Origin: a bacterium
Lineage (GTDB): Bacteria > Myxococcota_A > UBA9160 > UBA4427
DNA: 33,611 bases
Assembly: GCA_030432735.1 (NCBI GenBank)
Contig: JAUIMK010000009.1
Location: forward strand, 1-33,611
Direction: 5' to 3'
Positions within the stretch are counted from its first letter, which is position 1. The number at the start of each line of letters is the position of its first letter. The notes beneath the pieces were generated by a model. The model made no database searches and was not told the origin of the DNA. It worked only from the letters and a program-made list of their open reading frames with translations. The translations under genes were made by a program, and so were the position numbers. Positions 4,465 to 7,376 of this stretch are shown in pieces.

Positions 4465-5490
4465 CTACGCCTTGATGTTCGCCGAAGCCGCCTTCGCGGT
4501 CTTCACGATGATCGACGCGACCTTGTAGGGGTCGGCGTTGGACGCCGGTCGGCGATCCTCGAGCCAGCCCTTCCAGCCGTTCTCGACCGTCGCGATCGGG
4601 ATGCGGATGGACGCACCGCGATCGGACACGCCGTAGCTGAACTGATCGATCGACTGCGTCTCGTGCTGGCCTGTCAGGCGCTGGTCGTTGTCGGCGCCGT
4701 AGACCGCGATGTGGTCGGCGACGACGGGCTCGAAGGCCTTGCAGACCTGGTCGTAGACCGACTGGTCACCGCAGGTGCGGAGGAGCGTGTTCGAGAAGTT
4801 GGCGTGCATACCCGAACCGTTCCAGTCGCCCTTCACCGGCTTCGGCTCCCACTCGATCGCCATGCCGTACTTCTCGGCGGTCCGCTCGAGCAGGTAGCGG
4901 GAGACCCAGGTCTCGTCGCCGGCCTTCGCGGCGCCCTTGGCGAACACCTGGTACTCCCACTGACCGCACATCACCTCGGCGTTGATGCCCTCGACGTTGA
5001 TGCCGGCATCGAGACAGAGGTCGAGGTGCTCCTCGACGATCTCCCGGCCGACCGCGTTCTCCGCTCCGACCGAGCAGTAGTACTGGCCCTGGGGATTCGG
5101 GAAGCCGCCGGGCGGGAAGCCGATCGGCGCGCGGTTCTCCGGGTCCCAGATGCAGTACTCCTGCTCGAAGCCGAACCAGAAGTCGTCGTCCGCGTCGTCG
5201 ATCGTCGCGCGGCCGTTCGACTCGTGCGGCGTGCCGTCGGGGTTGAGCACCTCGGTCATGATGAGGAAGCCGTTCTTGCGGCCCGGGTCCGGGTAGCAGG
5301 CGACCGGCTTCAGGAGGCAGTCGGAGGATCCGCCCTCGGCCTGCTCGGTCGAGGAGCCGTCGAACGACCACATCGGACAGTCTTCGAGCTTGCCGGAGAA
5401 GTCCTCGACGATCTTCGTCTTGCTTCGCAGGCTCTGGGTCGGCTTGTAACCATCAAGCCAGATGTACTCGAGCTTGGACTTGGTACCCAT
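4465..5490 (-). CDS. glnII: Glutamine synthetase type II (eukaryotic-type GSII)
   Basis: This makes L-glutamine from glutamate, ammonia and ATP in the cytoplasm. At 341 residues it has the short length of GSII rather than about 470 for bacterial GSI. Diagnostic segments are MWSFDGSSTEQA near residue 40, FGFEQEY (metal ligands) near 106, GINAEVMCGQWEYQV near 165, NGSGMHANFS near 228 and RGASIRIP near 295. The start is ATG 5490 with GGAGG nine bases upstream. GSII lacks the GSI adenylylation tyrosine loop, so control is expected at transcription. A sigma-54 promoter lies about 290 bp upstream and a UUCG-loop terminator follows. The gene stands alone, and it is divergent from the Rieske cluster. 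Bacterial GSII is known from rhizobia and actinobacteria among others, often alongside a GSI elsewhere in the genome. Confidence 0.96.
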   Translation of the reverse strand: MGTKSKLEYIWLDGYKPTQSLRSKTKIVEDFSGKLEDCPMWSFDGSSTEQAEGGSSDCLLKPVACYPDPGRKNGFLIMTEVLNPDGTPHESNGRATIDDADDDFWFGFEQEYCIWDPENRAPIGFPPGGFPNPQGQYYCSVGAENAVGREIVEEHLDLCLDAGINVEGINAEVMCGQWEYQVFAKGAAKAGDETWVSRYLLERTAEKYGMAIEWEPKPVKGDWNGSGMHANFSNTLLRTCGDQSVYDQVCKAFEPVVADHIAVYGADNDQRLTGQHETQSIDQFSYGVSDRGASIRIPIATVENGWKGWLEDRRPASNADPYKVASIIVKTAKAASANIKA

Positions 5491-6068
5491 TTCGGGGGGA
5501 CCTCCATTTCGTTGGGGCTGGTGAACCGGTTCTGCTCTCGGCTCCTGGCATCGAGCGCCATCGGTTCGGGTTGGTTGCTGGGAGCGCGCTCACGTGCGTT
5601 CACAGGAAGTTCGCGGAGACGCGCCCAGGGCCGCGAGCGACCCGTTCGAGTCGACTCGCGCACACTACCGGGTCTCCCCTCACCGTCACCACAGACGCCC
5701 CCGGGACGACGCGATCGTCGACGCATTCGGGATGCATGCGGAGGCGGCTCGGATCGAGCTCCACACACCGCGGGAATAAGCAACGACTGTGCCAAAGGCG
5801 GACCGGCGGCTCAATGCCTCGAAGGCGTCCCGAGCGGGCTGAGAGTGCCCTGGAATCGTCCTCAGCCCCGACGGTCCGCGTCCGCGGCGGACGGTGGGCC
5901 GCGCGCTGCTCGCCGTTTGGGCAGCTTCCGGCACGACTGCCTGCCATCCGGGCATCGCGCACGAGGCTCGTCCGGACCGATTGACGGTCGGATCCCGTCC
6001 CCTCTAGGATCCCGTCCGCGGGCGCTGCTGCCCGGAACGCAACCCGCTCCGCTCCTGGAGGATCGACG
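5491..6068. other. 578-bp divergent intergenic region, glnII leader and Rieske-cluster upstream region
   Basis: Between glnII (minus) and the Rieske oxygenase (plus). The glnII-proximal 280 bases would be transcribed as a 5' leader from the sigma-54 promoter. I see no riboswitch I can name and no credible leader peptide; the ORFs here are Arg/Pro/Ser-rich shadows. The plus-strand side carries a good ribosome-binding site (GGAGG before 6069), but no clear -35/-10 pair was found. Confidence 0.6.
5780..5794 (-). promoter_or_regulatory. Sigma-54 (-24/-12) promoter for glnII
   Basis: The minus strand reads TTTGGCAC AGTCG TTGCTT. This holds the core TGGCAC-N5-TTGC with exactly ten bases between the invariant GG and GC, matching the RpoN consensus. 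It points at glnII, which is a classic nitrogen-regulated gene. The predicted start near 5769 would leave a leader of about 280 nt. I could not find a convincing paired NtrC site just upstream. Confidence 0.75.
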
Positions 6069-7376
6069 ATGGCTGCTTCGACCCCGCTCGCCACTCCGAT
6101 GGAGCGCGCCCCGGACCCGGGGATCGACTACGCCCCGATTCCGAAGTCCCGCTACACGAGTCCGGCGTTCGCGGCGCTCGAGTGGCAGCACATGTGGACG
6201 AAGACGTGGGTCTGCGCCGGAAGGGTCTCGGATCTCGACCGGCCGGGGGACTACTTCACCTTCGAGCTCGGCCCCGAGTCGATTCTCGTGATCAAGCAGC
6301 CGGACGGTTCGATCCGCGCGCGATACAACGTCTGCATGCACCGCGGCAATCGGCTGCGCGAGCCGGGGCGGGGCCACGCGGAGAAGTTCTCCTGTCTCTT
6401 CCACGGGTGGGAGTTCGGGATCGACGGCGCGCTGCTCGGTGCGCAGGACCCGGAGTGCTTTCCGCAGGGCGTCCCCTCCGACAAGCTCTCGCTCCGTCCG
6501 GTGCTCTGCGACACCTGGGGCGGCTTCGTCTTCGTGAACCTCGACCCGCAGGCCGAGCCCCTCGAGCGCTACCTCGGCGTGATTCCCGAGCACCTCGATC
6601 CCTACCACTTCGAAGACTGGAAGATCTCCTTCGACGCGACGATCGAGATCGAGTGCAACTGGAAGACGAGCGTCGACGCCTTCAACGAGGCCTATCACCT
6701 GGCGGCGACCCATACCTGGACGCTCGCCTTCAGCGACGACACCCGCACCCTCTACGACTGCTACGACAAGCACACGCGGATGATCTTCCCGGAAGTGCAG
6801 GCGAGCCTGCGCCATCCCGGCGCCGACACGGTCACGCCCGAGATCAAGGAGATGTTCCTCCAGCGCGTCGGGATCACGGACTTCGAGGGCTCCCCCGAAG
6901 AGGCCCGCACGGCGTTCGCGGAGCAGCAGCGGAAGATCGCGCCGTCGCTCGGGGCGAACCTCGACGACCTGAACGAGGCGCAGCTCTGCGACGACTTCCA
7001 CTACACCGTCTTCCCGAACATGACCTTCAACACCCACGCGCTCTTCACCTGGGTGTTCATGCACCGTCCGCATCCCACGGATCCGAACAAGATGTACTTC
7101 GACTTCTGGAACCTGATGAACGCCCCGGGCGTCGACGTGCCCCGGCCCGAGAAGCAGTTCTTCTCGACGGCGGCGGGGGATACGCTCGCCGGTGTGTGCG
7201 ACGGGGGCGACCTCATCGACGAGGACCTCTACAACCTGCCGCGGATCCAGGCCGGCATGAACTCCCGGGCCTTCGAGGATCTGCACCTCGGAGAGCAGGA
7301 GGTCCGGATCCTGCACCACCACCGCACCCTGGACGAGTACATCGAGCGCGGAAGATCGGCGGAAGGCGGTGTCTGA
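6069..7376 (+). CDS. Rieske non-heme iron oxygenase, catalytic (alpha) subunit
   Basis: This is a 435-residue aromatic-ring-hydroxylating-type oxygenase. The N-terminal Rieske [2Fe-2S] domain binds its cluster through C89-x-H91 (NVCMHRGN) and C109-x2-H112 (SCLFHGW). The C-terminal domain has the mononuclear iron facial-triad segment E207-x2-H210-x4-H215 (FNEAYHLAATH); an Asp in EDLYNLPRIQ is a candidate third ligand. GGAGG lies seven bases before ATG 6069. It overlaps the next gene, a Rieske ferredoxin, which is the natural electron donor. No beta subunit or reductase gene is present, so an alpha-only oxygenase of the KshA, carnitine or dicamba-monooxygenase type, using a shared reductase, is likely. 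The substrate cannot be read from sequence; the neighbours suggest a catabolic role. Confidence 0.93.
   Translation: MAASTPLATPMERAPDPGIDYAPIPKSRYTSPAFAALEWQHMWTKTWVCAGRVSDLDRPGDYFTFELGPESILVIKQPDGSIRARYNVCMHRGNRLREPGRGHAEKFSCLFHGWEFGIDGALLGAQDPECFPQGVPSDKLSLRPVLCDTWGGFVFVNLDPQAEPLERYLGVIPEHLDPYHFEDWKISFDATIEIECNWKTSVDAFNEAYHLAATHTWTLAFSDDTRTLYDCYDKHTRMIFPEVQASLRHPGADTVTPEIKEMFLQRVGITDFEGSPEEARTAFAEQQRKIAPSLGANLDDLNEAQLCDDFHYTVFPNMTFNTHALFTWVFMHRPHPTDPNKMYFDFWNLMNAPGVDVPRPEKQFFSTAAGDTLAGVCDGGDLIDEDLYNLPRIQAGMNSRAFEDLHLGEQEVRILHHHRTLDEYIERGRSAEGGV

Follow-up and report, generated by a model that had tools for sequence, protein, structure and literature searches.

A predicted NtrC/sigma-54 promoter in front of glnII in an uncultured myxobacteria-related lineage

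The glnII locus

The window, that is, the whole stretch of 33,611 nt analysed here, corresponds to one of the 544 contigs that make up a 5.05-Mb draft genome. The features of the glnII locus are as follows.

4465..5490, minus strand: glnII, glutamine synthetase type II (GSII), 341 aa (NF041605; Pfam PF00120 and PF03951)
5491..5768, minus strand: putative untranslated leader of about 278 nt, its start placed from the -12 geometry
5495..5505, minus strand: ribosome-binding block GGAGGTCCCCC, exact in eight of nine species and GGAGATCCCCC in the ninth
5578..5628, minus strand: inverted repeat CTGGGCGCGT / GCGCTCCCAG in the leader, common to five long leaders
5780..5794, minus strand: sigma-54 -24/-12 promoter TGGCAC-AGTCG-TTGC, from a motif scan and genus conservation
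5810..5815, minus strand: invariant ATTGAG box at about -47 to -42, in gapless register in nine species
5907..5923, minus strand: proximal NtrC-type dyad TGCCCAAACGGCGAGCA (TGC-N11-GCA), beginning 129 bp upstream of the first base of the promoter
5938..5954, minus strand: distal NtrC-type dyad TGCCCGGATGGCAGGCA, 31 bp from the proximal dyad

The glnII product matched the GlnII model NF041605 over residues 6-334 of 341 with an E value of 8.5e-123 and 409.7 bits, a score below the curated cut-off of 500 and by far the top match among the five families listed for this protein; the glutamine synthetase domains PF00120 and PF03951 both passed their Pfam cut-offs. GlnII matches of some kind were obtained in 38 of the 60 genomes searched (the source genome counted), including all nine genomes of the genus, with 83-99% identity in the eight congeners. 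The divergent neighbour (6069-7376, plus strand) matched subunits of aromatic-ring and glycine betaine oxygenases, all below cut-off, and has a sigma-70-like site of its own at 5981-6010.

A sigma-54 promoter motif conserved across the genus

The motif TGGCAC-AGTCG-TTGC (TGGCACAGTCGTTGC), read from 5794 to 5780 on the strand of glnII, has the form TGGCAC-N5-TTGC with the GG/GC spacing of a -24/-12 element, as recognized in the preliminary description, and is the only exact match in the whole window, where shuffled sequences would give 0.04. Across the whole draft genome, the motif occurred 28 times as compared with 6 for the reversed pattern. The first T of the promoter lies 304 nt from the glnII ATG; with the C of TTGC placed at -12, transcription would start near 5768, and the resulting predicted leader of 278 nt agrees with the initial estimate of about 280 nt.

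A 19-nt block around the promoter (CTTTGGCACAGTCGTTGCT) was identical in all nine genus genomes, present as a single copy in each and always before glnII; allowing up to one mismatch, the block was absent from the 21 other genomes of the family. The distance from the first base of the promoter to the ATG in the nine genomes was 304, 292, 308, 147, 323, 326, 95, 181 and 86 nt. Fourfold sites of glnII are only 48-82% identical between pairs within the genus whereas the promoter block is invariant, and the promoter is therefore under constraint.

If the motif were a chance occurrence, glnII would be transcribed from an ordinary promoter closer to the gene, and long leaders are indeed unusual elsewhere, a study of Bradyrhizobium giving 5'-UTRs of typically 20-40 nt and rarely >200 nt (PMC4842269). 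This is extremely improbable given the identity of the promoter in 9/9 genomes despite its varying distance from the gene and the paired dyads upstream of it. A sigma-70-like site was not found on the minus strand, the consensus being a weak guide in GC-rich genomes.

Paired NtrC-type dyads and candidate regulators

Two 17-bp TGC-N11-GCA dyads were present within 200 bp upstream of the promoter in each of the nine genus genomes, where shuffles would give 0.03-0.11 per 200 bp (P for two or more <=0.006 each). The dyads start 129-163 bp upstream of the promoter, with the proximal one at -129/-130 in six species and at -139 to -143 in three, and four species have a proximal-distal offset of 31 bp, the other five one of 20 bp; such spacing steps of about 10 bp, about a helical turn, would leave the sites facing the same side of the DNA. 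Two dyads each were also present at three glnII promoters of other genera (L032, L041, L042), and another glnII locus, L084, has three upstream of its sigma-54 site. The 17-bp NtrC consensus of E. coli is TGCACCAnnnTGGTGCA (PMC8743547), and TGC-N11-GCA is an NtrC motif present also at rhizobial glnII (PMC10746234). In the 12 leaders examined (the nine of the genus and those of L032, L041 and L042) no such dyad was found; the earlier suggestion that the promoter is distant because activator sites sit within the leader was thus not borne out, the dyads lying upstream of the promoter.

A sigma-54 DNA-binding domain (rpoN) was found in eight of the nine genus genomes, with none found in G008; in the source genome it is represented by a fragment of 88 residues at the end of a contig. 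An NtrC-like protein was identified once per genome in all nine, at 506-525 bits as compared with a curated cut-off of 558.6. The candidate of the source genome (contig C55) scored 524.8 bits, the next activator reaching 461, and contains receiver, AAA+ and Fis-type HTH domains; its helix region, GNQIRAAALLGINRNTLRKKI, presumably resembles that of rhizobial NtrC. The sigma-54 activator domain was matched 25 times in the source genome, and PII four times. The source genome carries rpoN, as a fragment, and an NtrC-like gene scoring under the cut-off. Together with the conservation of the sites, these two genes strongly support the control by RpoN and NtrC proposed in the preliminary description.

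The sites and genes at hand point to a classical NtrC/sigma-54 nitrogen-starvation promoter with upstream enhancers, a reading to which we assign a probability of about 0.9. The model infers where transcription starts, that NtrC is phosphorylated and binds, that the DNA loops and that the gene is induced: at low nitrogen, a phosphorylated NtrC-type activator would bind the pair of 17-bp dyads, whose centres lie near -147 and -178, and, via DNA looping and ATP hydrolysis, would open the RpoN polymerase at TGGCAC-N5-TTGC, upon which glnII would be transcribed. Another activator could bind the dyads, given the 25 activator-domain matches in the genome.

E. coli glnA encodes GSI, the gene here GSII. 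A 1988 study by Martin reportedly concerns NtrC/RpoN glnII promoters in Bradyrhizobium. The RpoN-dependent, NtrC-activated glnII promoters of rhizobia share with the present one the GSII gene, the NtrC activation (predicted here) and the TGC-N11-GCA motif (PMC10746234), whereas the present promoter differs in its myxobacteria-related host, in dyads that are mostly TGCC-initial and occur as two at helical spacing, in a leader of up to 300 nt and in a genus-specific ATTGAG box. The glnAp2 promoter of E. coli glnA likewise joins NtrC sites and a sigma-54 promoter at a glutamine synthetase gene (PMC8743547). Outside the Pseudomonadota, the nitrogen regulator DVU3220 of Desulfovibrio vulgaris bound to an ammonium transporter and PII operon; unlike in the present case, the term "glutamine synth" is absent from the main text of that paper (PMC3333781). 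The glnII promoter is new in its host only and otherwise appears to be of the classical NtrC/sigma-54 type.

The leader

The glutamine riboswitch (glnA RNA) and other Rfam leaders are RNA elements found in front of nitrogen genes, and the preliminary description had considered a regulatory RNA in the glnII leader, which as a riboswitch, attenuator or protein-binding hairpin would control glnII after transcription start. Unlike these systems, the window and 11 related loci, 12 sources in all, gave no Rfam match at gathering score. At E values up to 10, five matches were obtained on 5300-6100, all at chance level, among them narK RNA with 15 bits over promoter and leader (gathering score 43.2). 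The folding z-score of the leader was +1.2, with 176 of 200 shuffles folding at least as well (folding window 5470-5768, including 21 nt of glnII), and no terminator-like site was found in the leader.

What speaks for an RNA element is the inverted repeat GGGNGCG/CGCTCCC of the five long leaders, in which 90% of cells are paired as compared with 36-58% when slid by 1-3 columns. However, two-sided pair changes numbered 0 in this helix (five sequences only), 463 of 500 shuffles paired equally well, the sequence of the window itself breaks one pair, and the genus alignment did not show the segment in the other four of nine species. A consensus fold computed from an alignment of the five long leaders, the four short ones being left out, was rejected, its covariation term being unfavourable for the whole predicted leader fold (+1.16; 15 of 61 pairs with a two-sided change in some sequence).

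A second point in favour of an RNA element is the GGAGGTCCCCC block, kept in the genus with a possible start-codon hairpin. A small hairpin of this kind was predicted in all nine species, with a CCC/GGG inner stem and a loop that includes the start codon's A and U, the 42-nt stretch holding it giving -7.6 to -10.4 kcal/mol; against its use as evidence, one arm lies within the coding region and is fixed by codons. Between the two groups of long leaders, the leader columns had a mean identity of 0.45, and the columns of TGGAGGTCCCCC, at the ribosome-binding site, one of 1.00. As a separate signal, GGAGGTCCCCC was rejected, occurring at 53 places in the nine genus genomes as compared with 23 for the reversed sequence and thus not being specific to glnII. 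An upstream reading frame from the first ATG of the leader was also rejected, that ATG being lost in L023 (alignments inspected by eye).

Comparison of orthologous glnII genes was unsupportive of a leader function: leader length in the genus ranges from 60 nt, in G006, to 300 nt, and in four of the nine species the identical promoter is followed by a leader of no more than 60-155 nt. With neither an Rfam family, an unusual folding energy nor covariation to sustain it, the regulatory RNA is very unlikely; under the NtrC/sigma-54 reading the long leader is probably for the most part a tolerated, variable and neutral spacer.

A predicted nitrogen regulon in the family

In the source genome, 6 of the 28 exact sigma-54 sites had a dyad within 260 bp, one of them (L060, dyad at -21) probably by chance. 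A composite dyad and promoter pattern was then searched in 30 family genomes, giving 25 places in 16 genomes and none for the reversed pattern; as the pattern was drawn up after seeing the genus glnII and other source-genome sites, those hits are not independent. The remaining 14 genomes showed no match to the composite pattern. The 25 matches comprise nine at glnII, ten at amtB (nine of these in genomes other than the source genome), three beside PII, and one each at a BBP2 porin, a NarK-family transporter and a response regulator, the last identified by eye. The amtB start lies about 130-274 nt after the first base of the promoter (six matches aligned from residue 1) and the start of the PII-linked gene 126-128 nt after it, so that leaders of at least 100 nt are common in the regulon. 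In L071, a possible start lies 66 nt after the first base of the promoter.

Several of these loci deserve separate description. L071 (G000 C299:6579-6593, plus strand) combines a sigma-54 site with a pair of dyads spaced 31 bp apart; the short reading frame that follows showed a signal-like start and no Pfam match. L075 and L173 (G000 C458) comprise genes for an ammonium transporter and then PII, whose sigma-54 site has four TGC-N11-GCA matches ahead of it, two of which overlap. At L061 (G000 C116), a sigma-54 site and four NtrC-type dyads accompany a gene for a BBP2-type porin, possibly a nitrogen-regulated outer-membrane channel.

In L231, L221 and L227 (G000 C533:9722-9736, minus strand; G003 C4; G004 C39), a sigma-54 site with dyads points away from a neighbouring PII gene. 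The idea that it drives a small RNA was rejected, since what follows it is the gene of a protein of 95-97 aa; a scan of the G000 copy gave a Fis-type HTH but neither a receiver nor an AAA+ match. The three genomes are nearly identical over some 40 nt ahead of the start codon. In tblastn, this protein was closer to other activators of the source genome, with at best 40-42% identity over 52-62 residues, than to the NtrC candidate, with 29-37% over 46-94. In six loci of two other genera (L033, L037, L038, L040, L043 and, in part, L035), glnII is immediately preceded by a PII gene of the same orientation, and this order suggests a glnK-glnII operon.

Among other glnII genes, TGGCRY-N5-TTGC was found within 500 nt of only 1 of 74 glnII loci, with 0 for the reversed control; the 74 derive from the best 80 of 529 loci after exclusion of L080-L083 and removal of two with <400 nt upstream. 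The sole positive is L084, titled Deltaproteobacteria, most of the other titles naming Bacteroidota or Planctomycetota groups. Because only 1 of these 74 other glnII genes (from the best 80 of 529) has a site, the switch seems to go with the nitrogen regulon of the lineage and not with the glnII gene.

A survey of sigma-54 regulons places glutamine synthetase under sigma-54 primarily in Pseudomonadota (PMC12316311), and among the papers listed by searches of open-licence text none has a title on an NtrC regulon in Myxococcota. For an uncultured family that carries the label Myxococcota or Deltaproteobacteria, the present loci thus provide a nitrogen regulon under NtrC/sigma-54 that is clean and open to testing, with glnII, amtB-glnK, the porin, the NarK-type transporter and the PII-linked DNA-binding protein as proposed members.

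The ATTGAG box and the promoter spacer

Among the 122 columns upstream of the CTTTGGCAC block in the nine species, only six are invariant and all belong to ATTGAG; 0.011 invariant columns would be expected if columns and species were independent, a figure that is too optimistic as the species are related. The five bases of the promoter spacer, AGTCG, are invariant as well, and the plain NtrC/sigma-54 model needs neither.

These bases would fit a second control site over the core promoter, with ATTGAG and AGTCG forming either a housekeeping promoter (TTGAGN-N17-CACAGT) or a site for a repressor or co-activator. Against the former, the -10 candidate CACAGT matches TATAAT at only 3/6 positions, and the promoter scan gave no match on the minus strand. 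ATTGAG was also missing from the 260 bp upstream of the sigma-54 sites in the ten amtB and one porin matches, whose spacers differ. A second site of either kind is, on balance, unlikely. A fuller arrangement, in which glnII would have two layers of control, NtrC/sigma-54 plus a further regulator or second polymerase form using ATTGAG and the spacer, with the ribosome-binding-site hairpin tuning translation, is quite doubtful. At the PII-linked site L227, the reverse complement of the box, CTCAAT, is present at -60.
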